The notes beneath the pieces were generated by a model that was given only the letters and a program-made list of their open reading frames with translations, ran no database searches and was not told the origin of the DNA. The position numbers were made by a program, and so were the translations under genes. A stretch of 50,127 nt of DNA, taken from the NCBI GenBank assembly GCA_003693705.1, contig RBZT01000816.1, positions 1 through 50,127 on the forward strand, read 5' to 3'. Every line of letters starts with the position of its first letter. The first letter of the stretch is position 1. Of the stretch, positions 446-50,127 are shown one piece after another. The stretch is from Polymyxa betae. Its lineage: Eukaryota > Endomyxa > Phytomyxea > Plasmodiophorida > Plasmodiophoridae.

Positions 446-3345
446 TTAAACAGATCCGGATACGAAATCATCGGCAGATGGCGACGATGGCTCTGCCGCT
501 CCAGAGGCTTTCGGATCTGGAGCACTGCGTGGTTCTCCGAAGAAGATGGCGCCAATCTGTAATGCCGCCGACATCCCATCATCATGTCCGGAGAATGCTC
601 CGAACTGGACCGGTACGGCCGTGACATGATCTCCGCCGACATCTTCCTCAAGGCTCTGCATCATATGAGCTCGTGTAGCCTCCATCTCACGAGCTTGAAG
701 TCGCCGTTTCCGGCAGCAATAGGTGAGCGAGGCGAGCAGCACGCCGATCACGACGCCGCCGCCTGCGATCCGGAACGATGTTGAGTTCAGATCGATCACG
801 ATTCGACCGGATTCCGACATCGAATAGGGTTCGGCACCGGGCGATTCTGTCTGCAGCAAAGGCAGATCACGATATCGACTCGATGTCGCATCCATCATCG
901 ATGTTCTGAGATCAGCGGTAAATTTACAGATTCAATCGCTGAGATGGGCCGAAACGATAACGAAATGGAAAATGAAGGAAGGAGGCTTACTGAGGTTGAT
1001 TATTATCATTAGATTGTATAGATGCGGGAGATGTTGTATGAGTATTTGATATGATGGATATTATGGAGGGAATTGGTCGAGATGGATTCAATGATAATGC
1101 AGATCTGGAAATCATGTAATGGGAAAGAGTGGTGTTGTGACAATGTCCGGGATACCTGGCTGGTGGTTTAGAAGAGGCTGGGCTGCGAGACACAGATTTC
1201 GGACTCGACGAAATCTTCGATTGTGGTGACGAACTCGAAGGCGGTGATGAACTCGGTGATGCCTTCGAGTTCGAGCTACTTGATTTCGTTCTAAGAAATG
1301 TTAGAAAGGAGCGCACAATGCAAAGCAAACGAAGGATATTTGATATACAGAATGTGAACTGAAAAGTACGACAGGATGGAGTAAGAAGAATCCGCAACAG
1401 GAATCGAGTAAAGCGAATTGTTAATTTGACAACTTTCAGAAACCTCATAAAAAAATAGAATATAGAATACGAACCTGGGTGAAACTGCAGAGGATTTGTT
1501 GGTATTTTTCGAAGGAAAAAAATTGATTGAATAGGAGCTACTGAGTCTTCTGATACTGATAGCTGACTTAGATGGTGATGGCGTATTGGACTGTGATGGA
1601 GACGGCGTTGATGGTGACGGCGTATTAATCGGTGACGATATTGGCGTATAAATCGCTGACGGCAACGACGTATTGTTTGGAGATGGCGACGGCGTATTAA
1701 TCGATGATGATGATGGCGTATTAGCCGGTGATGGCGACGATGTATTATTCGGTGATGGTGAAGGCGTTGACGGTGTCGTCGGCGACGATTTTCGAGTCGT
1801 ATATGGCGACGTCTGAACACACAGAGCACAGGTCAGTGACAAGGGCGTACTGGCTCGCCGTGCGGACCTTTGGTGATGATGGACTTGGACTGGAAAATAC
1901 GTTCGGGGTGCGCCATGGGGTCTCATAGGGATATGAATACCCCATTGGGGTCTTATATGAATACATGAGTGATTGCCATCCAGCCTGATCATACGAATAT
2001 TGATAGAGAGGATCAGGACCAGCATCGGGTCGTAGGGCGTCTGCCATTGTCTTGGACCAGATCGCTGATACACCCTTGATCACGTCATAATGATTATAGA
2101 TGAGATCCCAGCTGGGCCTCTCCAGCCCACGGGATACATCAGAAATAGATCCGTATACAACGCCATCCGCCTGGAAGGGCGTGTACGGCACATGGTACCT
2201 GAATGCCATCAGTAGATGTTTGTGGGAACGCAACAAACAGTGGAGTGAGAATTGCAGAAAACCCTAAACCCTACCCGAGATTGTATTTGGCGATGTATTC
2301 TGATCCACGGAGGATCAGGTTATGGTTGTATGAGAACAGATCACATCCCTGATTCCATGCCGTCTGTGCAATCGCACCCATCATCGGTATCAGTAACGTA
2401 TTCACGGTCTGATTATATCCGGCCTGGGGCGACTGGGCCAGTCCGAACATCGCCTGATCGTACTTGAACGTGTTTGGTAACGAATACGACACCGAGCTGT
2501 CCTGGAAATACCCCATCGCTGTAACATCATGATTAACGAAATTCTCCTCAAATCCCAAAAAATAATAAAATTTCACGTGATTTAAGAAACAGTTCGTGAA
2601 AACGATGAGCACATTCTGATGAAAAAAAAATAACAAATCGTAAAAAAGATGAACACATTTCTTCTGCAGCCATTGACGACTGACCTTGATTGTATATCTC
2701 CGGAAGGTCACATAAGACTCCGATCGACATCATGGTCTGTATCATGGACAGCGCCCTGGTCGAGTACGCCCCCTGATCGGGTCGTGCCATCCATTCCTGA
2801 CATCGTGGTAGGAACACGTTCACCATCATATTCTGAAATCGCTGTATTCGTCCTAATGGCCATCCATCATAATCACGCATTAATTCAGCTGCATTAGCGA
2901 ATATGTGACCACGGGTACCCGTTACATAATACAGGTCTATGTTACCATCCACGGACTTTAACGTCTTCGAATACAGGTCTAATATCCGAGTGCAACGTAA
3001 TGCGTAACGTGTATCGTTAGTGAGTCTCCATAACAGAGCGAGTTGATAGGCGCTATGAACATCCGCACTGAATATGTCATCGTTACGTCCGGTAACGTTG
3101 CCGCACTGGATGACGGGTTCCACGGAGAGCGACGATGTCAGTGAAGCGAGCGGACTGCTGAGCAGTTGATTGTAGGCCGTAGTCCACGGATCTTGATTCA
3201 GTCCGAGCCAGTATCGGACCCAGGTAAACTCCGCATCTGTGTGTAACAGTCCGGGATGTTGAAATGCGGACGGAGTTGCACAGGTCGCACTCTGGGTTGG
3301 TGCAGGCAGATGTAACGTCATGGCCAGAGCCACAACCAGCAGCAT
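446..3345 (-). CDS. Secreted, membrane-anchored alginate-lyase-like protein
   Basis: Six exons (3345-2685, 2518-2275, 2198-1868, 1812-1475, 1290-991, 905-446) join in frame to 777 residues. An N-terminal signal peptide (MLLVVALAMTLHLPAP) is followed by a domain of about 390 residues like the alginate-lyase Pfam family: HPGLLHTDAEFTWVRYWLGL near residue 30, then RPSWDLIYNHYDVIKG near the domain end. Next come a Ser/Pro/Asn/Thr-rich stalk of SPSPNNT-type repeats, a second Ser-rich stretch, one transmembrane helix (VVIGVLLASLTYCC) and a tail starting with RKRRLQAR. This is a type I surface protein with the enzyme outside. The family cleaves uronic-acid polysaccharides by beta-elimination; the true substrate is unknown. 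Intron 2 begins with telomere-like GTAGGGTTTAGGG. Start chosen for the signal peptide. Confidence 0.85.
1564..1795 (-). repeat. Degenerate tandem repeat coding the Ser/Pro stalk
   Basis: About nine imperfect copies of an 18-30 base unit built on the codons for SPSPNNT, SPSPANT, SSINT and SPINT. It lies in exon 4 of the alginate-lyase-like gene and codes a flexible, probably O-glycosylated stalk between enzyme and membrane. NNT and ANT-type units also offer N-glycosylation sites. Repeat number probably varies between strains. Confidence 0.8.
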
Positions 3346-4486
3346 GATGTTACAGATATTAATGTTACCACCACTGACAATTTCGGTACAAATGTCGCAT
3401 GCCGCCTTTGAAATATCTTCCAGGGTCCAACCAGTTTCCTTTCAATGGAACGTAAACCGGCGGTGTCCGCCATCCAGTCCGGCCCGTTATCCGTTGGGCA
3501 GGTACGGCATCGAGAGCAGGCTGCACTTCTGCTTCCATATTGTATTCTATTCGAAGAGATAGAAAGGATGGCGAGGCGTTGATGAATATGTTGACAATGA
3601 ACCAGAAGCTCACAGTTCTATTGACGAACGTAAATCGTAGAGATGTCAGGAATATCAACAGACAAGTACGACGATGATTGAGCTTTCAATGTTGTTCGTC
3701 ATTGAATCTGTAAGCGCCCTGACAATCAGCACCATAATCTTACGAATCCGATCTGTTGATAATATTGAAGACCCCATCCAATTCCATCACAATCTGATGC
3801 TCAACAAATATTCACCAATGTCGCCGTGTTGATCCGAACACGATTGAACTGAACTGATTCTCCTCCTTGATCATCCGCAAACCAAACAGAGACCGACCAC
3901 AGAACTGATTGGATTCATCGAAGCCCGAACAATATTCGACTACCGTCTTTCCCAGCATAAATCGCTTATAAGGGGAGAATTTCTCTCTACAAATAATGCT
4001 TCAGCAGTGATTGCCTCCCATATTAGATACGTCTTATACTCATAATATGCCATCAATTCGAGGTTCAAATAGCTTTTATGGCAACGGGAACTTTTCTCTG
4101 GCTTTCACCATAATATTCGATCAGACAACCATATTTACAAAGGTGCATTGAAATGATATCACCGTCTATGGCTATCACTATCAATGCCAACATAAATCCC
4201 AACGACGAATTCGGGTCGGTTTATCAACAGCTCTCAATAACCGACTTGAACTCAATTTGGCAGAAAATCAGGTTTTAAGATTCGTGCTGTTTCCACAAAA
4301 TCTCAAATCGAAACAGCTTGAATGTCTCTCTGCCAGCCGAGACTTCTTAAATGATGATGAATATGAGCAAATCGAAACATTCAAGAGCGGACTATTCCCG
4401 CATCCAGTTGCTCATATATTTGGTGGTTTATTGGTACAAGAACTCCATACAAACTACAATCTATTGCAATCTCATATTTTCGTCTA
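3346..4486. other. Intergenic stretch, nothing recognised
   Basis: AT-rich DNA between the start of the lyase-like gene and the end of the F-box gene. The 5' side should hold the lyase promoter. I see no tRNA, repeat or coding-like reading frame. Confidence 0.5.
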
Positions 4487-5896
4487 TCACCATGGCGGAT
4501 CGGTCAGGGCGGACTCGGTCTGCACGTCATCCGGCGACTCGCGCGGCATCAGCGTGCCCAGTACGCCTTCGTACAGGGCCGGGGTCTTGGCCGCATACTG
4601 CAACAGCCAGAGTTTACAATGTTGCGGGACTGCATGAAAGAAGGGATGCGCGATCAGAAACAGGAACAGATCGACCTCTCTGTTCTCGATTAAATGTAAA
4701 AGATACATCATGAAATCATCAATAGCAGAGAGAATCACAGTTGAGAATCCGCACACACTCAACAGATCGTTCTCACGGACCAGGAACAGCAGGTGGAACA
4801 GCGTCGTACCGGCCCGCGTCTCCTGATACAGGTTGATATTGGGGACTTCCAGGAGAAGTTTGACGGCGTCGTACGCCTGTTTGAAGAGAGCGTAGAAGAG
4901 CGGCGTCCGATGATGATTGTCGATGGCGTTAACGAGGTCGTAGAAGAAGGGTTTATCGAGCAGACGCTGAATATGACCGTATTTGTGATGTTCGATCAGA
5001 TAGAAGATCAGCTGAAGGAAATCGCGCGGATTCGATCGAATTCGAAATCGGAAGACCGGAGTCGCCAGCAACGCATCCAGATGCCGTGACGTCTGATGGC
5101 CGAGATATTTCTCCGGCACGCTCGCGATGTCGTCGGAGTACAGCAGCGGGAGAATGTCCGGGACGTGGTGAGGATGGATGGCCACGGACTTGAGGAACTC
5201 GCGCATCCCGAACCGGATCCCGTACCGCTGCAGGGCCAGCAGCATCGCGGGCGTCGTGATCGCCGACGGGAAGTTCTGGCACAGATACGTGGCGAGTTCC
5301 GGATTGCGCGGGAACACGCGGTCGAAGGGCGCCGGATAGCGTCGTCGTACTGCCTCAATCAGATCCGGATCGAACTCCGCCGACGGTTTCTGTGAATCCT
5401 GAAGATAGGCGTCGATATAAGGCAGGAGCCAGGGCGGCAATCCGTCCAGGTCCTTCGGCACGTCCAAGTCCGGAGCGTTCGCGACGAGTTCGGCGAGGTC
5501 CGGACGCAGCGGCGGCGACGCCAACACCGATTGGAAGACGGCGCGATTCACGACGCAGAGCAGCGTCTGCAGTTCGAGCTTGACGTCGACGGAGAGGAAG
5601 GGCGCCTGCAGGACGTGGTCGTACAGGCTCGTGGCGACCTGCGGCGTGATCAGCTGCGTGTATCGTCGCAGACCCGGCCATCGATGCAGGTCTTCGGCGA
5701 GTTCACGAAGGCGCTGGGCGATCTCGACGTCGTCGACCTGTCCGTGGACGAAGTTCTGGATGGCGCACGGCACCCGACAGAGCCGATGCAGACGATGACA
5801 CGTCTGACCGAGCTGAGCGACCTCCAGGGCGGCCGTGTCGCCGATGATCTCGGCGACGAGATCGTCGGGTAATGCGTCCCAGCTGCTCTGTAGCAT
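4487..5896 (-). CDS. F-box-like protein with ankyrin-type repeats
   Basis: One exon coding 469 residues. I chose the ATG at 5896 (MLQSSWDALPDDLVAEII), which puts an F-box-like motif at the very start: L-P-D-D-L-V-A-E-I-I followed by LGQTCHRLHRLCR. An in-frame ATG 36 codons upstream adds only a Pro/Arg-rich lead. A long helical region follows, and near residues 340-400 there is an ankyrin-like stretch (HHRTPLFYALFKQAYDAVKL, then TTLFHLLFLV). Such proteins usually bring targets to an SCF ubiquitin ligase or act as adaptors; no partner can be deduced. The gene is clearly more GC-rich than its flanks. F-box/ankyrin proteins are common in plasmodiophorids, which partly guides my guess about the organism. 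Confidence 0.75.
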   Translation of the reverse strand: MLQSSWDALPDDLVAEIIGDTAALEVAQLGQTCHRLHRLCRVPCAIQNFVHGQVDDVEIAQRLRELAEDLHRWPGLRRYTQLITPQVATSLYDHVLQAPFLSVDVKLELQTLLCVVNRAVFQSVLASPPLRPDLAELVANAPDLDVPKDLDGLPPWLLPYIDAYLQDSQKPSAEFDPDLIEAVRRRYPAPFDRVFPRNPELATYLCQNFPSAITTPAMLLALQRYGIRFGMREFLKSVAIHPHHVPDILPLLYSDDIASVPEKYLGHQTSRHLDALLATPVFRFRIRSNPRDFLQLIFYLIEHHKYGHIQRLLDKPFFYDLVNAIDNHHRTPLFYALFKQAYDAVKLLLEVPNINLYQETRAGTTLFHLLFLVRENDLLSVCGFSTVILSAIDDFMMYLLHLIENREVDLFLFLIAHPFFHAVPQHCKLWLLQYAAKTPALYEGVLGTLMPRESPDDVQTESALTDPPW

Positions 5897-6454
5897 CGGA
5901 TCGGGATCCACCGCTCTCAACCGATTGTTTCGAATCGGTTGAATTGTTGATACGTTACCAAGCGGCCAGCGGGGGGGGGGTGGGGGGCGAGTACGACGAC
6001 ACACAGGGATGGCAGGCTGCGCTTCTGAATATTCATTGATTCGCGCGTCATGAATGCATTGGAAACCCTAAACCCCCTTCCACCTGAATGAATCAAGAAC
6101 CAGGTCCTCCGATCGCCAAAATTAATATGAATTCGAATTTTTTGTAAAAAAATGAAATATGTTTTCCACCATTCGGAGTTGTTTCACGATCTCACAGATC
6201 CGATGTTGATAATGAAATGATCGTGGTCATCTGATCGTATGATCATCGAATATTCACCTCGATGATCATGAAGGCGGAAATGTACGATGGTGATTTCGAG
6301 CTTGACAATGGCCATGACAGACTAGAAGCGCGAGGATCACAATCATAATTGGGTATCGGGACAATTAGATGGTCTCAGCAGAGCGAAAGACCGGAAACAA
6401 TCACACTATGTCACCTTGACAGTGTTTATTGCTGCATATTTGATCAACAAATAT
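5897..6454. other. Upstream region of the F-box gene with G-tract and telomere-like word
   Basis: It holds an interrupted run of G's (about 5970-5988) that could form a quadruplex, and a telomere-like AAACCCTAAACCCCC at about 6063. Both lie within 200 bases of the F-box start and are G-rich on that gene's template-complement (sense) strand or the opposite one respectively. The rest is AT-rich. Confidence 0.5.
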
Positions 6455-22340: not shown

Positions 22341-25211
22341 ATGATCGTCGGTTCAACGGAGTCCGTGACGGACCCGACCACGACTCGATTCGGACGTCCG
22401 GAATCCCTACTGCACAAGCTGGTGATGTCCAAGAGATTGAGAGCGGTCGTACTGGTTTGTGTGAGCATGCTTGGAGTCGGACTTGGGATCGCTATCGGTG
22501 TAGCGCTCCGTTCTGCGGACAAGCACACATCACAGACAGTATGTGATCTTCGTGCACTGGTGATCAGTAACGCAGTTAACGATATGTTGGCCTATCTGAA
22601 TGCGATCGGATCCGGTATTGAAGGCGATCTTACAACCGACTACCTGACTGGTGATGCATCCCGTAGCACTAGGATTAATGTTACACATGCACAGCCTTCC
22701 TATCACAGGTGACTGTTCTCCGATCACAGACTTTTTCAATTGTTAGATGTATCCGAGTAGGGTTTAGGGTTTCGCTCTAGCAGTAATGTAAACATGGCTG
22801 GCGTAGGCCTGGATATTGGACTGATCTGGAGATGCCAAGAGGATTAAAGTCCGTGGTTATGACCGTGGCGATCCGGAATGTCACGCGCTTTCACGCACTC
22901 TATCCACATATCCGAATGATCACTTCGCAAACCGCGGACTCCGCAATTTATTACCCCATCATATGCTCGACGAGCTCGAAGCATCAGCTCGGACTTGACC
23001 TGAATCTGCCCGCACTCCGGGACCGTGTCCATTTCACTGGTAACGTACCATCTCCCGTTACACGCCCGGCAATCGCCGTCCAGGATCATCACCTGATCCG
23101 CTCCGTGGTCGTACAGAGCCACGGATTCATTCTGGTCGGAGAACTATCCCTGGACGACGTACTGGCCCTCACGGATATCACGGTCCGCAGCAACCACAGT
23201 CGCGTGCTGTTCTCGCACATGTCGACGTCGAGGACAGCGTTGGCGGCCAGCACGACCGTATCGATCGCCGGTCGTCCGTGGCCAGCTGTCTGCTGGGCTT
23301 CGGCCAGTGACTCGGTCGTACCGGAGCTGCTGGGCGCCGTCTTGGTCGTGTTGACGTGCGTCCTGGTAGGGCTTCTGTCGTTGAATCTGAATCAGGCGCG
23401 GACTGCGCTCTACAGAGCCCGGAGTACGCCTTCTTTCAATCCGGGACTGCACTGTTCGGAAAACTTTCGTTTCTTCACTTTAGCATCGTCCTTTTGAGAT
23501 CAAAAGTTTCGGCATTTTTGGTAAATTGCATTTTTTTCAATTTAACGTTTTATGTTTCCTAATTTTTATGATTTTTTTTTCTTAAAAAATTAGACGGCTG
23601 AGATGATATTCAGGCAGCACCGAATTGCAAGGACATACTGGCTCATTGGCGGAGTTCCTGTGCCAAAGGTTTCTGGAGCCTGCGTGCGAGGCCGAGGCCA
23701 ATATCCGTACGGTGCTGGACCATGATGAGAAATGGCCCCAGCTGGCTCTTGATCAGAGACACGCACTGATTAACTCCGAGCATCAAGTCCGCATTCTACG
23801 CTCGATGTGCACGCAGTATGTCCTGATCCATGCTCGTGTGTCACGGACTCCGAAACTATTTCACCCAGGATTGTGGATCTGTGCGAGCTGGAATCCGGCG
23901 CCGCAACTCTGGACTTGAAACCGTTCGATGCTGTCGATCTGTTCCGGACTGTCGAGCGAGATTTCGCTTCCCGAGCCGAAGCTCGCGGTGTCCGTCTGTC
24001 CGTTCAATTGCCGCCGTGCTTACCTCGGTTCCTTATTGGAGATCGGCATCGTCTCGAACAGATCCTGTTCGATGCTCTCTCCAACTCCGTCACTGTAACA
24101 CCGCCAGGCGGCATCATCCACGTTGATGTCCGCGTGTCGGCCGTACTGGACCTGCGATCCGTCCAGCAACGTGTACAGCTGTCGGTTACAGTCACGGATT
24201 CAGGTATCTTATTTACTGTCATCACTGTTTTCGAGGTGCCGAATCTTGAAAACCCTAAGCCCTAACCATTCTCCGTTTACTTCGATTCCCGAGTGCGGCC
24301 AACGACTGACACGGTTTTGTGGGTCTTAGGTCCCGCCGTACCGGACCACATTGTTGCGGAGATGGGAGATCCGTGTACGAGCCTGGTCTGTAGTCCGAAG
24401 TATGGCGGGCTCGGCCTCCTGACCATCAAGAAGCTCAGCGCTCTCATGAACGGCACCATTAAATTAAAGACCAGGCCCAATCGTCTCACAATCACCCTTC
24501 AATTTCGATATGAACGCCGACGGACAGAGCCCGGGGGCAGTACGCCATCCGCCAGAATTTCGGCGGCATCATCAACATCAGCAGCTCCGCGGACCCCGTC
24601 CGGCATCCTGCTCGTGGTGGGCTCCGATCTCGAGTCGGCTTCGTTACTCCGTGCGGCTGTCGGGGACGCCCGCGGCTGGCAACTGCAAATGATCCGTGAC
24701 GGAGATGACGTCATGCGGGCCCTGGACGTACCGGCCCCGGGGCGGCCCGAGACCCGGGTCGCACTTATCGTCATTGACCTATCTGGCACTCTCGTTACGG
24801 TTTGACATTTTTTTCCATTTTTTTTGTGGCTTTCAGCTGGAAAGTTTTGCTTTCATCAAAAGCTGAAATCGTTCGTTGCAGAATGGAGCCGAATTGATTG
24901 GACGGATTCGTCAGGCGGGTTTCAGAGTACCGATCGTGACGCTGTCGGTGGCTACAGGCGATAAAGGCGTCTTGATATCGGCAGGATCGGACGCTGTATT
25001 ATGGAAGCCATTGTCTCGTAATCAGATACAGAGTCTAATCGAGTCCATGAACGTGGACGCCCCTGGCCACCGACCCCAACCTGCGACAGTTCGTGCTGCA
25101 TCCCGGACTTCGAGGGCGTTCGGGAGTCGTTTCATGCCGCAACTGGACTCGTTCGATATCATTTCCAAATCCGCAAAACTTGTCTCGAAATCTTCCAGTA
25201 TTGGGTCGTAA
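22341..25211 (+). CDS. Membrane hybrid histidine kinase 2 (degenerate H-box and receiver)
   Basis: Six exons (22341-22708, 22840-23423, 23614-23815, 23869-24203, 24330-24793, 24882-25211) code 760 residues. Layout matches kinase 1: TM1 (VVLVCVSMLGVGLGIAIGVA), external domain, TM2 (LLGAVLVVLTCVLVGLLSL), dimerisation-like part, ATPase domain (RLEQILFDALSNSVTVTPPG; VTVTDSG; YGGLGLLTIKKLSAL) and receiver. The last three introns fall at the same points and phases; up to the G1 intron both coding sequences are exactly 1489 nt. The H-box reads LCQRFLEP, Gln instead of His. The receiver's acidic pocket is weakened (LLVVGSD), though Asp (VIDLS) and Lys (LWKPLS) remain. It is probably a signalling scaffold or inactive partner of kinase 1. 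The first intron's acceptor is the least certain junction. Confidence 0.85.
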
Positions 25212-31690: not shown

Positions 31691-34090
31691 AGTCCTGTAT
31701 CTTATTCATAACATGCCCAACGCAAGTATGCATTATCATGCTGACATATGGATCCAGATAGTGGTGATGGTGACGATGTGTGATAGATCTGAGCTTGACA
31801 GATCGAGGTAAGACAGCTTGTCGTATGCCAGGGTCGGTGTGGGCTGGTACGAGGATTTCTCGTCATTGGTTCTCTAGTACAGAATTAGTTGAACTGAGAG
31901 ATGTAGCAGACCGGCAAAGCAGCACCATCAAAACCATCGTAATGAGGATATAATTCTACCACAAATGGGGAAACATTCTGAAATTAATCGAGTGAAAGCC
32001 GTTTTTGCAGGCACGACTATCCCAAAACGGATCAGATGCTCAGAATGAATCTAGATGGGCTCGAGTCTGCGAACGAACGATCCAGAAACGTCTTCAGATC
32101 GATGTTGAAATGGTTGCAGTAATGTGTTAAGAGCTGCTGTCAACAGTAGGCACAGCATTGAGCAAAGAACGGCTCTCTATATAGACCTGCTAGAACTTGA
32201 TGACTGTGATAACAGCTAAGGTCAAAGTATAGCATTGAATTCGAACTAATCTCTGATGGAGTCTTTACACGATATAAATCCTGCTCCTGAAGGCATCGCC
32301 TTGCTGGTAGACTTGATGAATCGTTGGGCTTATCTATCGTGAAGCTTCCTGGAGTGCAAAGCGGAAAGATTGCATGATTTTTATGACTCGTGTTGCTCAA
32401 TATTCCACTGCCTGAGCAATTGGGAAATACAGACATCTTTTTCGTGAAGTTTGAGGGATGGGTCGCCCTAATTCTTCGCCGGGAAAAATGGCAGTTGATT
32501 CTGTCATGAAAAAAACTCGAAATTCTAGTATCGGCCAAAGCAGCCTTCAAGTTCCCATTATGGAAGTCAGGAATAAGTTATTTTCAAGAAGGAAATCGAA
32601 TAATTTTGATTCCGTATCCCTGTTGTAAGCCATCTGGCTGTACTGGCCCTGATCGCCAATGGTTTGCAACGCGGTCGCACAAGAATGATGACATTTTTTT
32701 TCAAGCCAGACAAGGATAGAATCTGATTGAAGCCTTCGTAGGAGAAAATTGTCTCAGCTTAGTTGAGTGGCCGTCAGGATCTTATCAACCGGTAGGTCGT
32801 TCTCGTTTTCTGGCTGAAACCACCCAACACGATGCTTTGAGCTTCACAACAGATCTTCACCTGTCCTATCGTCAATCACTACTACAAAAAGAGTGTCGGT
32901 GATCATGGAAGCTTTCTAGGGGTCTGTCAGCAAGCTCCCTATTTCTGACCAGATTCACGACACAGAAGAGAGAATCATCACGGCGTGACGGCGTCCGCAT
33001 TGAAGAGTCCCGGAATCGCCCATTTGCAAAGTGTTCTTCATTGACAACGGCAATAAAGAATGTTTGCTTTACCAACCAACTCTATCCAAGATAAATGCTT
33101 CCGAAAATCCAATAAAATCTTAAGCCCAGTCCGATATTGTGAATATCAAGAAGAAAGCACCTGATGAGCCATGATGTAACCTATCATTCATATAATCGAA
33201 CAAGTGCAATTGAATCGAGAAATCCCCTCCTTAGCTCAGTTGGAAGAGCGGGGCACTGTAGTTGTGCTGTAATGCTCAGGTCACCCGTTCGACCCGGGTA
33301 GGGGGGATTCCTTTTTGATTTCTGCTTTAAATCAAGGAGAAACGGATCTGAATGGCAGAATGATTTTTTCCAGCACTGACCAGTATCATGGATGCTGTCC
33401 AGCGACTGTTTCTAATGCTTTGGTGCAATACATTTCAAGCTGCTGATTGACGGCCATGAAACAAGCTAACAATTTCGAGCAATCTTTGATATCTTCACAA
33501 ACAGTTTTTTTTTTAGATCTCTGGGGGTCTGGCCAGCGCTGAAATCCTCCCTAAGATGGCTCTGTTCACGAGTTTCGTGTTACGTCGGCAAGGATGAAGA
33601 CCGGTCAAGCAGAACCCGCGTTGTCGATGGAGTTACTCGATTTTAAATCAGCTTTTTCAATCATTGAATCGCATCCATAAACTGCAATGCGTTTTGGGGA
33701 TCTTCGATTCGATCGTGGCATCCATCTTGCTGGAATCCCCAAGACTAATTCTGACCTAAGAGACGCTTTTGTCTGGCCAAAATGTGACCTGTTTTAAAAG
33801 TGATTCTGACGAAGGTAAATATCCGTTCGTAAGTTCATTGCGAATGGTGTAATTCAACATTTGAACCTTATGAGGTATAATATTTGCTATGAGAAATAAA
33901 GACGGATTTCATATCCAATGACAAAACTATAATTTCTATGGATTTTTTTGACCGTGTTTCAATCTGGACTGATCCGGTCGGATTAACCCGGGTCTGAGTC
34001 CGTGACCGATCTGCCTTGCTCTAATCACTGGCTGATTCTCTAGTCGGTATTCTAATTAGAAGCCGTGCCCTGGCCCAAGCGCCCTCCCTG
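31691..34090. other. Gene-poor region around tRNA-Tyr
   Basis: About 2.4 kb. Apart from the tRNA I can support no gene. The first 300 bases are the flank that is also duplicated near 25.9 kb. Around 32620-32740 a short plus-strand piece reads LAVLALIANGLQ, which may be a transmembrane relic. T-rich patches at 32693 and 33507. Confidence 0.4.
33225..33307 (+). tRNA. tRNA-Tyr (GTA) with a short intron
   Basis: Acceptor CCCTCCT pairs with AGGGGGG. D arm GCTC...GAGC. The anticodon stem GGGCA pairs with TGCTC, loop CTGTAG gives anticodon GTA. About 10 nt (TTGTGCTGTA) after position 37 form the intron, at the canonical place. T arm ACCCG/CGGGT with loop TTCGACC. A Pol III stop TTTTT follows at 33312. 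Intron-bearing tRNA-Tyr is universal in nuclear genomes, which supports the call. Confidence 0.93.
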
Positions 34091-36550
34091 ATGCTTGTGG
34101 TCGTACTGGTGCTGGCCGTACAGACCGTCGCATCCCAGCTCAGGCTTGATGTGGATCCGGACCCCTTCGCCACCGAGACCCCATCCTATTATCGTGATTT
34201 CGCCGATTTTCTGGACAACGAGGCCGTGGTCTTTGGTCATGACAACTCGACGTCCGTTCTGGAGTTCCTGGGCCGGTACGAGTCTGAGACGCGCAGCCGG
34301 ATGTACCGTTGCATTCATATCAATTATAAGAACGCCCAAGATTCTCGTATCTGGGGTAACTATCAGCGAGTATTATCATTAGATCCGAAAGGGTCTGAAA
34401 TATCCGAATATCTTTCTCAACACGATCACGAAAAACTGCTTGTGAAAGAGATGCAAAAGCTTAGAAAGTAAGCCTACTACGCTACCTGTTGTCCCTATCG
34501 CTGCTTTTGCTGTTGAAACGTTTACGATATTGTTCGCGTGATTTCGTTTTTGTTGGAATTTCATGGTGTTTGTACAAACCGTCATTTCACGCATTAGGGA
34601 GCTAGACGAACGTGGCAAGCCCAAATGGCGTGAAATGCTGAAGGTTGCTTCGGATTCTGGGATCTATTCGGCCTTCCGATCCGCCGTCCATGTTGTTGCC
34701 AAGCGATCTAAATGTCAGTCTTCGGAAACTATCAAGTACATAATGCGCAGTCTGGATGCCATTCCCAGTCCGGATTCACATTCCGACATCGCATTATGGA
34801 CGTCCCTCTTCATACTTTTAGAAAAACCCGCCAAAATCAACGAGTTCATGTACATCAGGTTCCTAGAAAACCCAATGTAGGTCTTCTGAGACGTGTCCGC
34901 AGTTGCTCACGTTTGCAGCGTGTAACGTTTCCACTGGGCTTACGTTTCTACACGGAATGCTGCCATTGGGCGGACGCTGATTTGCGAATGCTGACCGGGT
35001 TTGTTAGGGCTCGTAGTGTCTGGATCGAACCGGATTGGCTGGAGTATGCGAGGCGGATCTCGGAGCGCTCCTTGACGTTGTCCAAGCCATGTCGTGACCT
35101 ATTCGTGAACCAGTCGCATCACTATCGCTCATTTCACATTGTATTGGACTATATGAAACCTGAAGATCAAATCGAACTCGTTGACGAGATCCTTCAGCAC
35201 ATGTACGTTACACCTTTAGTCGCTTTTTCCTTGATTTTTTTGTTAGTCGAAATCTTTGCACACAAGCGACTACTCTCATTCTGATTTCAAGTTTCGGCTC
35301 TGTTTGTTACGTTTCATTAGCCGCATCTGTCTGTATTGTTCATACGTTGTGTCTGTATCAGGATCGAAACTATGGTCATAGCTGTGACTCCTGAGCCGGA
35401 TATGAACTATATTCAGTCCGTCTACGATGCTATGTTTAGGTTCAATCTAATTGAACCTATTCTTGAACGACTTCTCAAAGTCGATCTGTACGTCTCTCAT
35501 ACCTTATTCATTTCTTTGCTTCAATCGTCTTTGATTGATTTAATTTTTTCTAAACTTGATTCTTTTGGGTATCCAATTTCGATATTAAGAAACATCTTCA
35601 CGATATTCCCCCTTTTTTACCATCTGTTGTTTGTGAAGACCTTCAAATGCTGTGCGCAATTTCCAAGTAACGTAATGCTACAGGATTTTACGAAAGCCGG
35701 TTATGGGTATCGTCTTCACCATCATTTGCCGTTTGATGGATTTCACGGATCCTCAGCTAGAACCTGTCCTTCAGTCTCCAGTCATGGATGACATTGCCCA
35801 GTTAATAGCAGCGGTCAAGCCTTCCATTATAGTTGACCCAGAACCCCTAGTCGCCGTACTGCCCCCAGCCGAGGACGATGATAACAGGTCACTGTGCTAT
35901 AGGGATCGGATCATCGTGGAGCCGGCTGTTCAGATGGCCACCATCAGGGACCGGGTTCCAGCAACCCAAGGTCCAGTACGCCCTGACTCCGTACGGGCGG
36001 CTGAAGACATTCGCATGTTACTAAGGCAAAAGGGTCTGCAAGCGCCTCCTGAGAAGCGGCCTCCAGAGCCTGCACCGGTCTCCGTCCGGGAACGTACTGC
36101 TCCCCGCTGTGGCGAATGCGCTCGGAATCCGGAGCCGGAGCATGGCGTGTCACAGCAACGTAGTCCGGAAGTGGATGAGACAGAGCTCGCGGAGCAACCC
36201 CCTTCGATGGAGCAGCAACCCACCTCTAAGCAGAATGATAATGTTACAAACCATCATGAACCCGAATCCAACCTACAGCCATCATCTAATATGCTCGAGA
36301 ATGTGGAATCACGTAGGTGATATGATGTAACATGATTATGTGGCTAACTGACGTGCTGTTTATAGGTCGATTTCAACTGATATTCATGATAGTAGCTGGA
36401 TCTACAGTGATAGGCAGTATCGCATTGTTTCTAGCTAAAGCGAAATTTCAACAAGACCCAACTAATGATGATACTAATGATAGACATCTTCGTCATCATC
36501 ATCATAACTTTATACATACAGACACTGCCAGGCCCTTCACACCTGGATAA
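34091..36550 (+). CDS. Type I membrane receptor-like protein A (paralog of B)
   Basis: Six exons (34091-34467, 34598-34876, 35008-35202, 35362-35487, 35684-36312, 36366-36550) code 596 residues. A signal peptide (MLVVVLVLAVQTVASQ) is followed by a helical external domain of about 350 residues (RMYRCIHINYKNAQDSRIW; VWIEPDWLEYARRISERSLT; MDFTDPQLEPVLQS), a Pro/Glu-rich stalk of ~180 residues, one TM helix (residues ~538-560, LIFMIVAGSTVIGSIALFLA) and a His/Asp-rich tail (HLRHHHHNFIHTD). I do not recognise the domain. Exons 3 and 4 have exactly the same lengths (195 and 126 nt) as in gene B, and intron phases agree. Gene B has an additional middle section that this gene lacks. A surface receptor or adhesin is the most reasonable guess. 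Confidence 0.82.
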
Positions 36551-36862
36551 CCAAATCATACAATATAAATACATTCGTATCACGTCCATGCTGCTTCCAC
36601 TGTAGTTGTGCTGGACGCTCAGCCCTGCGGCCACGATTGCAGATCGCCACTGTCATTTGCTGCATTTTTTTATCTGTTGTGATTCGCACTTTCCCCTAAG
36701 CGGTAATGGATGGGTTTTCAAGGCCATCATCACCCCAATCTGGTCAGAAAGATGAGTTGAAGTTGGTGTTGATCAAAGGGAAATTGTTGAGTGATTATGG
36801 ATAGTTTATACAATTATTATATTGATTAGATATATGTGATTAATACATTTCATGTATAGAAT
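36551..36862. other. Convergent 3' ends of genes A and B with a tRNA-Tyr-like scrap
   Basis: About 310 AT-rich bases. At 36600-36627, ACTGTAGTTGTGCTG plus GCTCAG repeats the anticodon loop and intron of the tRNA-Tyr at 33225 with a small internal difference. The rest of the cloverleaf is absent. Confidence 0.55.
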
Positions 36863-39800
36863 CTATGCAGATGTATAGTATGGTGTGTGATGTATGAAAA
36901 CATCATCATATGATTCATACTTCATACATTGAAATCGAGATATTGATAATATCACGAGGACAGTAAAGACCACTGTACATGCTCCTATTAGAACGAATAT
37001 GAGGTTATATGAGCCTATACATGGAGCAAATCAGAAATGATACAATTAGGTAACATTACAGCACATACTCGGGTCACATTCATCATCGGGTTTCGGACTA
37101 GTCACGGGCTTGACCGAGTTCCGATAACAGCCACCACTTGGAGCGTTACACTCAACAGCGGGTTCCGTTACATTCCTCTCCGACTGAATTAGTGGTAGGT
37201 TTGAAGCCGAACAGTCCGCCCAGCCATTCACTCTATCAGGCTCGAGATTCGATCCGGAATCTTCTCCGACGTCAACAGGTCGGCAATGCGAACTACAGTC
37301 AGTGTCGTGAGTGGGATTCGGAATTACAGATGGTGGTGGATCCATCAAGTCCGGTGGCGGACTTATACCGACTGGTGGCGGATTAAAATCGATCCGAGGC
37401 GGATCCATGATTTCTGGGGGTTGCTGATCAATGCTGTCTGGCGATGGATCAATGTTGACTGGCTCGAGTTCCCGCGTATCGGCTCGGCGCGTGCCATCCG
37501 CCCGTACCCGTACTGGCCCAAATTTTAATTGAAGACGATCGACAGGATGGTTGACAATGTTGTATGAGATGAGGCGCTTGTCCGCCGTATTGCTCGCATG
37601 AACGGGTGGAGGTGCGGTATCACGGATCGGATCGGGCGGAGTAACGTCATGGACAGGGTTAGCCGGTGTAACGTCAACATCCGGGTCGGGTGAGGCAATG
37701 ATCGTGTCTGGACCGGGTGCTGGGTGACCGTCGGATTGCGGGTCCGGAGTTGGCTCCAGTAGAGATTCAAGTGCGATTTGGTCCGGGTCGGTAACGAAAC
37801 ATTGCAGACGCTGAAGACGGCTAGTGCCGGGGCAGTACCACGGACAGGCAAATTCCCGTTTGAGACGCTGAATAAATTGACGAAAGTAGGTGAGCATTTG
37901 GGTGCGCCCTGGACTGGTTATGTCCGTAACAGTATCCGATAGAGCCGCATCTTGTAATCGGATTAATGTCAATGTCTTACTGTCATGATCATACAGATCT
38001 ACGAGGAAACGTTAGCCATGCTTTACGGAGCCACGTTACAGAAAAGATCAACTGCAACCCGGAAGTCTCTGCCAGCAACCAGGCATATCAAACTTGTTCA
38101 TAATGTAACGAAAAGTATGTAACATAATCAACAAAACTTGTAGAAAATCTTGAAAACAAAACGGGAGAGAATCGTAAAAAATTGCGTGACGAAGATGGCG
38201 ATTGGGGACTACATACAGTGACGTGGATCAAACCGTGCCAATGATATCCCGGACTCATGCAGGGTCTCAAACAGGCGTACGGACTGCGTCACGAGTCCGA
38301 CCACGAGCTCGACGGCCTCTTCGAACTTCTCCGGAACCACGATACGATCCAGCGGCTGACCCACCGCGCCGTCCAGTACGACGAACACCCAACGATTGGC
38401 CTCCACAAACTCGCGCGGACGTACGACGCTGTCGATGGGCGCGACCTTCAGTCGACATAACGCATCCAGTTCGGACTGCGTTCGGACGAAGGCGACGTCG
38501 AATCGCGCTCCGTCCGGATCGGACCGGTAACATAACTCATGTGCGCTTAAGTAACGGAATTCCTGTGCGAGAGCAGCGACTTGGCGGATGGAGACGCCAC
38601 GTTGACGGACTGAAGAGATGGAGATCGGGCCGTGAGTGAATGCGGATTCGGACTCCGGGGCTGGGACCGTGTCCACGGAAGCTGTTAACAACTTCGTGAA
38701 GCTGGCTCTGTTAAACTCCGCCCACTCCATATCATTCGACTGAGAATATATCGCCCCCCTAATCGTCCAACGTAAGCGACCATTTTTCAAAAAAAATCAT
38801 AAAAATAAAGAAACATAGAAAGTTAAAATTGAAAAAAGTGTTTTTTTAAGTGAAAAGAAAAAAAATCGTATCCGTTCATCAATCGCTTATACAGGCTATC
38901 GCTCTGGAAAAAATTTCCAATTTTTTTTTGAAAAAGTATTATACCAAGCCTGAACGGCAGCTTGACGATCACTAGGCGTCAGGGTGGGCCGTCGGAAGAA
39001 TTCCGGGTCATGATCGAGGTGCAGCATGACCAGATGACGAAGCATGCGATGGTCAAGAGGGTTGGCGTGTCCCTGGCAGACGAGATTGGCGAGGCGAATG
39101 ATGTACCGTTCGGAGGCGGCGGCGTCCGCGAATAAGGCTTCGAACTGGGTGACGGCGTCCTGAGCCAGATTCTCCTCGCTCATGAACTGGAATAGGTTCT
39201 GCAATGTCGGAGTTAACAGGTCGATCAGATTCGCCGAAATACTCCTACATTTTGTTTTCAGAAAAATTCTGCAAAATCTTCGAAAAAGAATTAAACAGAA
39301 CCAACAGCTGAAAGAAGAACAGAAACATGAACATAATTTGTTACAAAAAATATGAAAAATTGCAAATAGACGAACAGATGTGATAGGAAGCGTCCCATAT
39401 CGATGGGGCCCTCCATCAAATTGACGACGTCCTGAAATTCCAGTCCATCATGGAATCTGATTAGAAGAATGGCAGATTCGAAGGCGGATCGATTCGGATG
39501 TGCTCCGAACTGTCCATCGCAAAACGTCTGAAATCCTTGATCGTTGATGGTGATCATGGTGCAGTCGTGAAACACGAGAGCCCAGATTAATGGGTCCAGA
39601 TACTGCAGGGATTCATCCCGAGCAAGACATTGGTCCGCATATGGAGATTTCGCAGCCATTTCACACGCCACTTCGATATCAATCAAGCTGCTCCTAAACA
39701 ATGGTAATGTTACAAATCATGGCAGATTCGGCAACCTGGAAAACCCACGGAAAATTGGACTTTTCAACATGAATTAGAGCCAAAACAGGAAAACATTGCT

Positions 39801-41618
39801 GAAAATGGAAAGAAAAATGCTGAAAATGGATTTTTCGAAAGGCGATAAATTCTCAAGGCTGTTTTCCATATGAGCATTGGAGGTCAGAAACAATCTTAGC
39901 GCGAAAAGCAGATAGAATTTTGGTGGCTCATACAGTCATACCTGAGATAGATAGAGAGAAGAATTGGACTATTTTTACAATCTGAATATGATAGAAGGTG
40001 TGGTTTATCACCAGCTATAAGATTGCGAAATGGCAGATCTGCGAATGGGACCACAGACGAAGCCCGGAATAGAATGTTACGAACAGATCCCGCCGTCTGC
40101 ATCTGCTGCACTTTCGGGTCCGAAAAATCCATACAGTTGAAGATAATAGATAGAGCGACCGCTAGCGATTGCTGACTCTGAAACCAGTACGTCCTAATAC
40201 ACAAATCAGTCAGGGCAGAACTTTAATCTGACGGAAATTTAACGATTGATTTAGAGAAAAAACAAAAAAGAGAATGAAAAACGACTCAAATCCGATAAAA
40301 ACAATAGTAAAAATAGCACGAAAACGAAAAAAAAAAATGTACTGAAAAACTGCGAAAGTGAGAAAAAAATTAGAAAAGTCGTGGTAAAAGTGTGAAAATC
40401 GTGAGCGCACGCGTTAAATTTACAGAGCCAATCCATGATAGTATCGATCAGCTGTAGTTCATACAGAGCTTGATACACAGAACGGACCCAGTCGATATCG
40501 GGTTCCTTGACTCCATACGATACCATCATCATCATCCTGACAGCCCTCAATCAGTACATCACGATCATGATCACAATACATCCCTACATATTGTTAAGGA
40601 CCCCATGCAAGATCTCGGCCTGTTTCGCGGGATTCAACCCTCTTAATACGATATGGAAACAGCGACATTTATAGGAGCGTTTGAGAAACTCGCTGCGGCT
40701 GTCCTTGGAGAGCGTCAGGGCCCGAGCCGAAATGAGTTCCGCGCAGGATTCCCACTCCGAGCTGGTCCAGACCGTCCGGTACCTACTGGACACTGAGTAC
40801 AACGTTACTGGGCGTGTGGAGATAACGTTACGTGGGCCTCTCGAAGTAACGAACACCGTCATCACACGGTTTCTGTAACAGACGGAAAAGATAGAGCCAG
40901 AGTGTCGGGTCCGTGTCGATGTGCGGAGATGGCAGGGTGCGGACATAGTCGACGAGGGCCAGTAGGTCCGCACTCGATTGTCGCGTACGACCAAATTTTG
41001 GATCGGAACTGTCGTGTAGAAACGTTTGCAGTATGGAATACAGCCCGGATTGTATCGTGATCTTCTGCATCGCGTGCCAATTCCGCTCACTGCAATACGG
41101 TTCAGGGAAACGTAAACACCAGAAACGTTAGCGCACCGTTTGAACTTTTCTAATCTGTGACGATATCGGCCTTCATGATCGATCTGCAGATATTCTTTGA
41201 TCTGATCTCGATCCGGATCATGGGCCAGCACTTTCCGATAATGGACATAGATGCGACTGGTAGGTTGCTCCCTGTAGTTGTGCGCCACGCACAGATACAG
41301 ACAGCAACGTTGGTGAACCGTGAACTGGGCCAGAAATTTGTCCACAGAGACGGACTCCGCCCACGGATCTGGACTCGACAGATAGGCCCCGAACTGGCCG
41401 AAATACCTGAACAGTTGCGAATCCTTAATACGTAGTACTGGCCCATCCTGTCCCGGGATCCCAGGTGGGCTAGTACAGTCGTCGTCGAGCGACGTATCTT
41501 TCAGTCTGATCGCCCGCGAGTCGGCCGTATCAGAAAGTTCCGAATCGGGATCGGCGGCGCCTGAATCAGCTGAGGCCCGGGTCAGCACGACCAAAAGAGC
41601 CAGGACGATGAGCGTCAT
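36863..41618 (-). CDS. Type I membrane protein B with a kinase-like, catalytically dead region
   Basis: Ten exons (41618-41137, 41089-40832, 40782-40588, 40536-40411, 40193-39942, 39693-39376, 39244-38945, 38758-38217, 37998-37069, 37014-36863) code 1184 residues. Signal peptide MTLIVLALLVVLTRASA; residues ~1-400 match protein A (YVHYRKVLAHDPDRDQIKEY; ISARALTLSKDSRSEFL). Exons 6-9 add ~650 residues. Near residues 800-840, LHESGISLARFDPRHYLYD then SKTLTLIRLQDAAL copies the spacing of a kinase catalytic loop and the strand before DFG, but HRD, Asn and DFG are lost. A Pro/Asp-rich stalk, one TM helix (FVLIGACTVVFTVLVILSIS) and a short tail end the protein. The kinase-like part would be extracellular. 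Kinase likeness is inference from this local pattern only. Confidence 0.8.
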
Positions 41619-43683: not shown

Positions 43684-45096
43684 ATGTCGTCAGTCGATGC
43701 AAGCATTCCGGTTCCCGTAATGTTGCCGCGGTCTCCCAGCCCTAGCAAACGGGCACCCACTCGTCGTTTATTATCAAGCCCTGGACAAAGTTCTGTCCGA
43801 CCAGCTAGACCACCAAGTCCCCCAGTCACTCCTTCAAGTTCCAAACAGACCGCGTTGGGCAGGGGTAGGGAATTCTGCTAGTAGTTTGTATTGAGATATT
43901 TAATCGTTTCAAGGCATCGTAAATTTTCATTCTTATTGCCAGGATCTGATAAGTTTCGATGACTATCCAGATGTATCAGCGCAAGATCGTGCAATTATCA
44001 GCGGATTTCTCACTGGTGATCTTTTGAAAAATGGTAAATCATCATTTTGTACTTCAATTTTGTGATGCGCGTGATTGTTAAATCATTTCAGAAAAGTGGC
44101 GAGAAAAGTTCCCTTCAGGAAAATTTGAATGCACTTTGCAAGCATCTAATGAATCTCAATCTGACGAATTCGGATGTAAAGAGAAGATTGTATTCAAGAT
44201 AGATTTTCAACGAGTTTCTTGTATCAAGGTACTTTGTGAGCTTGCATATCCGACTGAGCATGAATTCTATGGGTTTTCACATCATAAATCTTTGTTCAAT
44301 CAATTTCTCTTGCCAAGAACTATTCCTGCCGTATCGTCTTCAACGTTCTTATTTCAGTTGCCATTTCAACATTTTTCACAATCGGGAAGTTTATTAAGTA
44401 TTTAGAAAGTTAATTTCTGCTCTCGTGTTTTTCGTATGGCATAGATCAACTATTTTTTAGAGTATTACCCGACGTGTATGGTCGTCAAAAACACGTCCTG
44501 CTGATACCGGATCTGAAATCGGATCTGAATCGCCTACTAAAACTCCTAGTATGCGCAGCATTCATTCTCGCAAACGAACCCCCAAACAGAGACGCTCGTC
44601 ATATCCCCAGGAATCGGAGTCACCACGTCAGGACACTCCAAAACGAAGTAATTCTTTCCCCGAAGAGAAAGCATCGACACGCAGGCAGCCTCGTCGAAAT
44701 TTGGATGCGAATGGAGCTGGATTGATTGAATTGGAATCGCCTATCAAAGAGGGTCGTCGCCCGACCCGCAAGACAAACGCAAAGGAATCTGTGAAGCGTT
44801 CGCGATCAGTATCTCAAGCGACTCCAGGAAAAAGTAGGAAATCATCGGTGAAAAAGCAGAAGAAACCCAAAGTTTCAAATCAAGTATGGAATGTAGAATC
44901 CATTTTAGACCACAAAGCGGAAGGCGGAAAGGACTTATTCCTTGTGAAATGGGAGGGAAAAGACGATAAACGAAAGCCGTGGGAAAATACTTGGGAGCCA
45001 AAGGCAAATATTAGTCGCGATCTCATTGATGAGTTTTGGCAAACCCACAAGGGCAAAAAGACAAAGCGATCCACTGGTCCCAAATCGAAAAAATGA
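43684..45096 (+). CDS. Chromodomain protein (HP1-like) with long basic region
   Basis: Exons 2-4 are firm: 43943-44033, 44092-44228 and 44461-45096, ending in a chromodomain. The first exon is probably from the ATG at 43684 (MSSVDASIPVPV, Ser/Pro-rich), but its donor is not settled; a GTCACT at about 43825 would keep frame. The protein is about 340 residues. The middle is Ser/Arg/Lys-rich with PRQDTPKR and TPGKSRK-like motifs. The chromodomain (about the last 65 residues) reads VWNVESILDHKAEGGKDLFL, VKWEGKDDKRKPWENTWEP and RDLIDEFWQTHK. Chromodomains read methylated histone tails. The cage has Trp where Tyr usually stands and Lys where an aromatic is expected, so binding may differ. Nuclear. 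Confidence 0.83.
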
Positions 45097-48772: not shown

Positions 48773-49304
48773 AGTTCCGCTTTAGGCTCTGTGAACTTTT
48801 ATAAGACCGTCATCTGACTAAAGGGGACTGGATAATTTCAAGTCCTCTGGCGTTGTGAGGTCTCACTCAAATGTAGAACTGAGGCTATCACTTTTGGACA
48901 GCTCACAGCGGTTAGCTAGCTCATCCGACCGGTATAATGCGATACTTCCAGCAAATGCATATTGGCGCCAAGAACCTTGATTGCACTCTATATACCACAT
49001 TGTATTTGAGGTCAAGATTCATTCACAGACATGTACGTACGTACTCCTATATATTGTGTGATGCGCCTTGAACCAACGCCATCTCTAGATTGAAACATGG
49101 CCGAGAGACCCAAAACAAGCTCTTCCAGTTGTCTCAAGACGCTATCATCTCACTTTGCTCCAGACATTGAGGATTGCATCTTGATAATTCTAGTTACGTT
49201 TTGTTTTGGTCTAGCATATATGTGAAGAGGGACTTTAGAAAAAGGTAGAAATGTTGTCAAGCCCTTTCGGCCTGTAAAAAAAGGAGCCCCAGAAACAAAA
49301 AAGA

Positions 49305-49389
49305 TGTGTTCGACGGGATTCGAACCCGCGCCCCGCGAACGAGACTAGCGCCTTAAGCTAGCGCCTTGGACCAACTCGGCCACAAACAC
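49305..49389 (-). tRNA. tRNA-Leu (AAG), copy 1
   Basis: 85-nt type II tRNA. Acceptor GTGTTTG pairs with CGAACAC (one G-T). Anticodon stem CTAGC/GCTAG with loop TTAAGGC gives AAG. Long variable arm (CTCGTTCGCGGGG region) typical of Leu, T arm with TTCGAAT, discriminator A as needed for leucine. A run of T's follows on the minus strand (Pol III stop). No intron. Confidence 0.93.
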
Positions 49390-49932
49390 ATAATTTTTTA
49401 TATTACACGGGAGCGTGTTCTAAACTGCTGGAATACGTTTGAAGCAGTGAGTGTATTTCATAGAATGCAATTGGAAGGCAATGCTTCGGGTTGCAGTAAC
49501 GTGAATCGACGCTCTCGATATCTCAAGATTGGTCTAACAGCGCTCATAACGCTAACATTAGGTATCTGGTGAAGATGGTGGTAATTACAGAGCTAGGTCG
49601 GTCTGCACGGTCCCGCCTGAGACTTGATTGGTCCGGTCCGGTCTTGGACCTTACCGGACCGGACCCTGCCCAGGTCTACTTCGTCCAACGCAGGCCTCAC
49701 ATCCTGGGAGCTATCATTCGCGTGACTGGCCTCTAGAGCCTTAAGACCGAGCAGAAATTTCCGACTCCAAATCGAGTAATTCGGCTGTTATCCCATTGAA
49801 AGCAGCACAACAGATGTTGGGACGAGAAGGAATTGAAAGTTTTGTTAGAATATGTATTAGAATATGTATTTCGATGTTGCATATTCAAAAGTTAACTTGG
49901 AGGTGATTCGGGTTTTGGGCTCCAACAAAAGA

Positions 49933-50017
49933 TGTGTTCGACGGGATTCGAACCCGCGCCCCGCGAACGAGACCAGCGCCTTAAACTAGCGCCTTGGACC
50001 AACTCGGCCACAAATAC
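49933..50017 (-). tRNA. tRNA-Leu (AAG), copy 2
   Basis: Same 85-nt gene as the copy 628 bases to the left, differing at only a few positions. One change (GTATTTG acceptor) creates an A-C mismatch in the acceptor stem, and the anticodon stem has two weaker pairs (CTAGT/GCTGG). Anticodon and loops are intact and TTTT follows, so it is probably transcribed but may be less stable or drifting. Confidence 0.88.
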
Positions 50018-50127
50018 ATAACTTGAGGCATCTGGAGATGATGGTGGTGAACTACAGAGATTGAACGTAATTGCTAAAAGCATTTGATCGAAAAACATAC
50101 TTCATAAGAGCATCCACAGCGGTTGCG

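Follow-up and report, generated by a model that had tools for sequence, protein, structure and literature searches.

What does a membrane protein do with a kinase-like section that seems to have lost the residues for catalysis? The question is raised by contig RBZT01000816.1 of Polymyxa betae (assembly GCA_003693705.1), whose 50,127 nucleotides (nt) form the window analysed here (contig C32 in our labels, which name the other contigs of the genome in the same way: C47, C171 and so on). Two of its genes, A and B, share an N-terminal domain (N-domain), and B alone contains a long extra section that a first-pass annotation had compared to a kinase core. Our answer, to which we give a probability of about 0.6, is that B belongs, as a pseudokinase with a non-catalytic binding function, to a lineage-specific family of type I membrane kinases, and that A is a kinase-less relative of the family through B. 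Seventeen kinase loci found in the genome searched (24.4 megabases in 541 contigs), a profile match between them and B, the residue loss in B and a shared layout lead to this reading of the two genes.

The gene models are as follows:
34091..36550, plus strand: gene A, 6 exons (34091-34467, 34598-34876, 35008-35202, 35362-35487, 35684-36312, 36366-36550), 596 amino acids (aa); signal-like N-terminus, N-domain, Pro/Glu-rich stalk, transmembrane (TM) helix and short tail, without a kinase section (gene model, hydropathy, codon usage).
36863..41618, minus strand: gene B, 10 exons (41618-41137, 41089-40832, 40785-40588 or 40782-40588, 40536-40411, 40193-39942, 39693-39376, 39244-38945, 38758-38217, 37998-37069, 37014-36863), 1185 aa; after the signal-like N-terminus come the N-domain, helical modules, the pseudokinase, a Pro/Asp-rich stalk, the TM helix and a short tail (gene model, hydropathy, codon usage).

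These models confirm the tail-to-tail arrangement (A plus, B minus) proposed in the first-pass annotation, and its view of A and B as paralogs is borne out by 32% identity over 328 columns (blastp, E-value (E) 2e-47), which places the shared N-domain at ~320 residues, and by matching intron phases: introns 1-4 are in phase 2 and the last intron in phase 1 in both genes. All introns have GT-AG borders. The phase agreement is not fully independent evidence, because we selected the splice sites manually from several candidates while watching frame and phase. Of the equal exon sizes claimed, exon 4 has 126 nt in both genes, and exon 3 agrees only in part (195 nt in A, 198 or 195 in B, where a tandem acceptor, CAGTAG, makes the start ambiguous); the extra length of B over A is 589 residues, not the ~650 first estimated. 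Codon usage, trained on ubiquitin, S27a, ubiquilin, L10a and paralog kinase exons, ranks the annotated frame best of the three sense frames in 15 of the 16 exons of A and B (the exception is B exon 3), and B exons 6-9 score as well in their coding frame as B exons 1-5. Composition and hydropathy agree with the expected stalk-plus-helix endings: both proteins have an N-terminal signal-like stretch and a strong C-terminal TM helix, that is, a type I membrane layout (signal peptide, one C-terminal TM helix, short tail) as read by eye from hydropathy. A also has an additional borderline hydrophobic segment at aa 326-344 (1.65).

The family emerges from genome searches. Besides pieces of A and B, residues 1-645 of B matched eight places through exon 6 (E 3e-8 to 0.3), and some of these loci, once fetched and searched with A and B, had kinase sequence downstream. 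A kinase exon from C47 used as genome query retrieved 18 loci at E ≤ 1, and two further kinase queries at E ≤ 0.1 retrieved 17 each, the same set minus C444. We count 17 kinase loci besides B, including C424 as a weak member (E 4e-4, 6e-6 and 0.05 by the three queries). All eight exon-6 matches outside the window (8/8) lie upstream of a family kinase exon and on the same strand.

Thirteen kinase domains of the family were joined across both exons for alignment (C65 and C25 are short at the C-lobe). Every one of them matches PF00069 (Pkinase) at E ≤ 0.01, with a best E of 1.6e-18. Eight Pfam families are matched by the 13 at this threshold, among them PK_Tyr_Ser-Thr (13 paralogs), ABC1 (11), APH (7), Kdo (5) and OspG (2), and the first family member scores best against Pkinase. 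Against PDB, the family profile finds 2234 distinct sequences at E ≤ 0.01, and the best 60 of these 2234 are protein kinases, starting at E 1.8e-16. On such profile evidence, these 13 paralogs are members of the protein kinase superfamily. Their Lys, Glu, Asp and Asn columns are invariant, and DFG is intact in 11 of the 13 (missing in C290, DFE in C438). The short post-DFG stretch, together with Bud32 models matching each of the 13, makes the family look like small kinases with a reduced C-lobe; the NCBIfam scores of the first member, Bud32 included, are far under the curated cut-offs. A database search with the paralog region running from module E2 to the kinase gave 105 matches among 7983 candidates scored, which are kinase domains with a coverage of 22-33% and whose named organisms are two bacteria and one nematode; no full-length relative of this region was found among those candidates, and no PDB relative of the paralogs' helical region was found.

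Three further observations concern individual loci. Three family kinases lie within about 14 kilobases (kb) at C47 16305-30248, two on the minus strand and one on the plus strand. At C418:13846-14187, a family kinase has a frame break in the catalytic-loop region, which is either an assembly error or the mark of a decaying copy. Finally, C444:9937-10158 is a more distant kinase-like open reading frame (ORF) with HLDLKPAN behind a signal-peptide-like stretch, possibly a member of a second secreted kinase family.

How B relates to this family can be followed part by part along the gene, all on the minus strand and in the order of translation:
39942..41618, minus strand: exons 1-5, signal-like N-terminus and the N-domain common to A, without any other genome match (blastp, genome search).
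39376..39693, minus strand: exon 6, helical module E3 (genome matches E 3e-8 to 0.3; hhalign to the E3 profile, E 4e-18).
38945..39244, minus strand: exon 7, matching helical module E4 by hhalign (E 8e-6; score 34.7, where the best of 60 shuffles reached 16.2).
38217..38628, minus strand: the part of exon 8 that starts near aa 688, with what is left of the N-lobe, helices C to E and the catalytic loop (profile match and alignments; N-lobe strands not confidently aligned).
37999..38216, minus strand: intron 8, phase 1, at the family's catalytic-loop intron position (donor, acceptor and phase compared with paralogs).
37754..37998, minus strand: start of exon 9 (aa 826-907), the DFG strand, changed to RLQ, followed by a short C-lobe that includes PWY..PG (alignments).
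37069..37753, minus strand: Pro/Asp-rich stalk (composition, 19.7% Pro).
36863..37014, minus strand: exon 10, TM helix (aa 1140-1158; hydropathy 3.04) and short C-terminal tail.

Residues 645-907 of B score 63.6 against the family profile, and 200 shuffles of them reach at most 25.0. Other controls stay low with the same profile: 15.4 for B exons 1-7, 19.1 for A and 10.5 for the stalk and TM helix of B. Among 32 other ORFs of the window (≥150 aa), the highest scorer (32.0) is the frame of exon 9 itself, and none of the remaining 31 exceeds 21.7. Against the 13-sequence profile, B aa 645-1185 aligns with a probability of 95.6 (E 1.1e-8) over 139 columns, and the pattern from the hinge to the C-lobe is retained together with PWY. 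The intron in the catalytic loop adds a character of another kind. It lies next to the catalytic Asn in phase 1, with the donor at the same position in 14 of 14 paralogs keyed and a frame-consistent acceptor in 13 of them (not C291), five of which offer more than one option; the other three of the 17 loci are intronless there (C522), broken in frame (C418) or partial (C424). Intron 8 of B has the same place and phase, and leaves the 9-residue spacing to the DFG strand that was chosen for 10 of 13 paralogs. The introns between modules in C47a and C47b are in phase 2, as in B. Taken together, profile match, intron position and upstream modules establish, at the level of sequence, that B belongs to this kinase family. 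The kinase-core layout first noticed in the extra section is supported by the profile match and above all by the 17 kinase loci in the genome.

The same alignments inform on the fate of the active site. No GxGxxG is present anywhere in B, and no alignment of B places a Lys at the VAIK position. The catalytic Asn before the intron has become His and DFG has become RLQ, while the Glu of helix C is kept. Both replacements had been named at the outset and hold; the proposed change of HRD to ARF was not reproduced, the HGD of the family facing LAR by hhalign and in one MAFFT run, SLA if the alignment is extended ungapped from the intron, and Asp 822 in one alignment discussed below. B has lost catalytic residues and is, judged by its sequence, a dead kinase. 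Losses also occur elsewhere in the family. Over 15 paralog rows (the 17 loci less C418 and C424), every catalytic residue tested is retained in eight, the Lys in all 15 and the Asp of HxD in 14. Among the remainder, C212 has YGD, C114 and C438 are without the Gly loop, C438 also having DFE, C290 is without DFG, and C522 has HGS with neither Asn nor DFG; the Gly loop of C171 is unresolved and C291 is partial. In the tree, B sits on by far the longest branch (5.3 versus a median of 0.51), and its place is unsettled, with 2 of 12 inner branches well supported. B is the most diverged member, an extreme case and not the only degenerate one.

The membrane layout of B recurs in its relatives. Signal peptides were recognised by eye at three of the four loci displayed (C47a, C47b and C171), and a TM helix followed by a short, often basic tail occurs within 2.2 kb downstream of the kinase at eight of nine loci examined, C22 being unresolved; these helices were picked by eye from hydropathy only, and several loci have further hydrophobic stretches in other frames. 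A protein built as signal peptide, kinase and TM helix would hold the kinase away from the cytosol, on the lumen-facing or outer side of the membrane. Hydropathy supports the same placement for the B section, which had been predicted to be extracellular or in the secretory lumen.

The N-domain has a different distribution. A genome search with A gave eight matches, five in A and three in B, and none outside these two genes, so that the sharing seen by blastp is detected only in A and B in this genome. A Pfam search of full A and B found no match for the N-domain, and an annexin, its only PDB match at E about 1, was not credible. By its predicted architecture, B is a private N-domain combined with the modules and kinase of the family, and domain shuffling at phase-2 introns is a possible route to it.

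Several results weigh against assigning B to this family as a pseudokinase. Pfam finds no kinase in full B, with 0 families at E ≤ 10, and six-frame genome searches with three paralog kinase queries did not recover B. Confident alignment is limited to the stretch between helix C and the C-lobe; two MAFFT runs disagree on where the N-lobe lies, and FDVAFV (from aa 731) was fitted to VAIK by eye, with Val for Lys (aa 733-736). In one of these two runs, Asp 822 pairs with the catalytic Asp and the loop comes out three residues shorter. An AlphaFold model of exon 8 alone has a predicted local distance difference test score of 36.2, too low to be informative. B is without the paralogs' E4a/E4b intron and their phase-1 Gly-loop intron, and nothing in B matches modules E2 and E5 better than shuffles do. 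Profiles of the A/B N-domain and of the paralog modules E2-E5 give nothing above shuffles either, and since the paralogs have nothing related to exons 1-5, they lend no support to the junction between exons 5 and 6. In a protein database search, B had no match at E ≤ 1 among 7997 candidates scored; a PAS_10 match of its kinase-like section (E 0.054) was taken as chance.

The alternative that fares best is decay: the kinase section of B would drift without function, and the pair would matter only through the N-domain kept in A. The very long branch of B suits this view, as do the fact that A does without the section and the losses in other members (catalytic residues in C522 and C290, the frame break in C418). 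Against it, the ten exons of B stay open over 1185 codons with canonical splice sites, exons 6-9 keep a codon usage as good as that of exons 1-5, and the hinge-to-C-lobe pattern and PWY are retained; we consider decay unlikely. Somewhat less probable still is that the model fuses two genes, an A-like one made of exons 1-5 and a family kinase gene of its own made of exons 6-10. In favour of this, no relation links the N-domain to the paralogs' N-terminal region, A demonstrates that the N-domain can exist without a kinase, and intron 5 contains, in one frame, an ATG and then a hydrophobic stretch ahead of a stop, possibly a hidden signal-peptide exon. Yet exons 5 and 6 join in phase 2 across 248 nt from a GTATGA donor, and the N-domain part of B would be left without stalk and TM helix, unlike A. 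That the B section is active by an atypical mechanism, like the WNG kinases of Toxoplasma, which are active though without a Gly loop, is very improbable: Asp 822 could replace the catalytic Asp in one alignment and Gly-loop loss alone need not abolish activity, but Lys, Asn and DFG are changed too.

If B is indeed a pseudokinase of the family, a mechanism can be sketched. With a signal peptide before it and a TM helix after it, the family kinase domain would lie in the secretory lumen or outside the cell. There, B would not transfer phosphate. It would act through binding, the likeliest roles being those of an allosteric partner of the competent paralogs, a competitor of them or a holder of a shared substrate. 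The helical modules and the N-domain may choose the partners, and A would present the same N-domain without the kinase. The site of action of the family as a whole may be the secretory lumen, where proteins exported by the parasite itself would be the targets, or else the plasmodium surface, exposed to host contents.

Little is known about how plasmodiophorids, parasites inside plant root cells, act on their hosts. Secretory parasite kinases are already known, secreted kinases of Plasmodiophora brassicae included. A literature search that covered few subscription journals found no description of TM-anchored extracytoplasmic kinases or pseudokinases of plasmodiophorids, and two plasmodiophorid secretome studies set TM proteins aside (PMC12503489, PMC4471660). 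We tentatively raise the possibility of an "inside-out receptor kinase" system, in which a dedicated set of membrane-tethered kinases would have their catalytic domain, instead of a ligand domain, facing the host cell and be tuned by the pseudokinase B and by the kinase-less A sharing its private N-domain. If this doubtful proposal were true, secretome screens discarding TM proteins would have missed the system. Besides, the analysis offers a concrete candidate set of 17 kinase loci (C-terminal anchor in eight of nine examined, signal peptide in the three with a recognised start), in which the role of a dead family member is directly testable.

Lineage markers of the genome give a mixed picture. 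Its ubiquilin is identical to a database protein encoded on a 1.5-kb contig and has its best named match in P. brassicae (488 bits, with 58% identity across 72% of the query), the next matches reaching 409, 392 and 365 bits and plants 334 bits. Plasmodiophorid polyubiquitin carries a rhizarian residue insertion. In the polyubiquitin at C318:63776-65183, the monomers join GG-MQIF directly without this insertion, and the rhizarian insertion near residue 103 of L10a is absent. A reading as "not rhizarian" from polyubiquitin was set against the ubiquilin nearest to P. brassicae and left open. The GC content of the window (46.9%) is closer to those of P. betae (45.1%) and Spongospora (45.7%) than to that of P. 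brassicae (58.5%) (PMC6328671). The last polyubiquitin monomer at C318 is split by an intron after MQ.

The window holds other features. A 49-nt AT-rich inverted repeat, 86% complementary, has its arms at 38789-38837 and 23531-23579, one of them in B intron 7; taking this intron as a repeated element was rejected, a genome search giving only one other piece, in the window. A tandem array with a 24-nt period occupies 1610-1801. An ORF at 2551-3441 (minus strand) has a weak alginate lyase match (E 5e-4, below cut-off), and a 526-aa open frame at 4490-6067 (minus strand) with a weak ankyrin match overlaps a GC-rich kilobase (62.5%). A chromodomain ORF lies at 44461-45093 (plus strand; E 5e-12). 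Two nearly identical tRNA-Leu(AAG) genes stand 628 nt apart at 49303-49390 and 49931-50018 (minus strand); a tRNA-Trp was found at 6454, and a tRNA-Tyr at 33225 by ARAGORN only, not among Rfam matches.

Among known systems, FAM20A and FAM20C pair a pseudokinase and a kinase in the secretory lumen, the pseudokinase being the allosteric partner, and the family described here would resemble them in that respect. Membership in FAM20/FAM69, types that the first-pass annotation wanted included in a fold search, is not supported: these Pfam families are absent from the eight matched by the 13 paralogs at E ≤ 0.01, and B matches none. With small kinases of the Bud32, APH, Kdo and OspG types, the family shares the HGD loop and the short stretch after DFG (models match 13, 7, 5 and 2 of the 13, respectively); it differs from these types in that its first member stays far below NCBIfam cut-offs, also for Bud32, and has Pkinase as best Pfam match.

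By description rather than sequence, the closest parallels come from parasites. The nearest named relative, P. brassicae, has a 20-member cluster of secreted kinases (PMC12503489) and also SSPbP22, for which kinase activity is reported (PMC8595600); the cluster cannot include TM-anchored members, because TM proteins were removed there. The FIKK kinases, 20 in Plasmodium falciparum (PMC8893276, PMC1079819; the former also carries the WNG kinase name), are likewise a lineage-specific expanded family sent through the secretory route, and differ in being exported to the host cell. In the same vein, the ROP5 pseudokinase regulates the active ROP18 among the rhoptry kinases of Toxoplasma (PMC3493473). 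That system belongs to another lineage; the present family is predicted to have helical modules and a C-terminal TM anchor, and the partner of B is hypothetical. Both are sets of secretory kinases, some active and some dead, in an intracellular parasite, and in ROP5/ROP18 the dead one regulates the active one. Beside the rhoptry (ROPK) and FIKK families, the kinases described here would add another intracellular parasite in which secretory kinases have expanded, degenerate members included.

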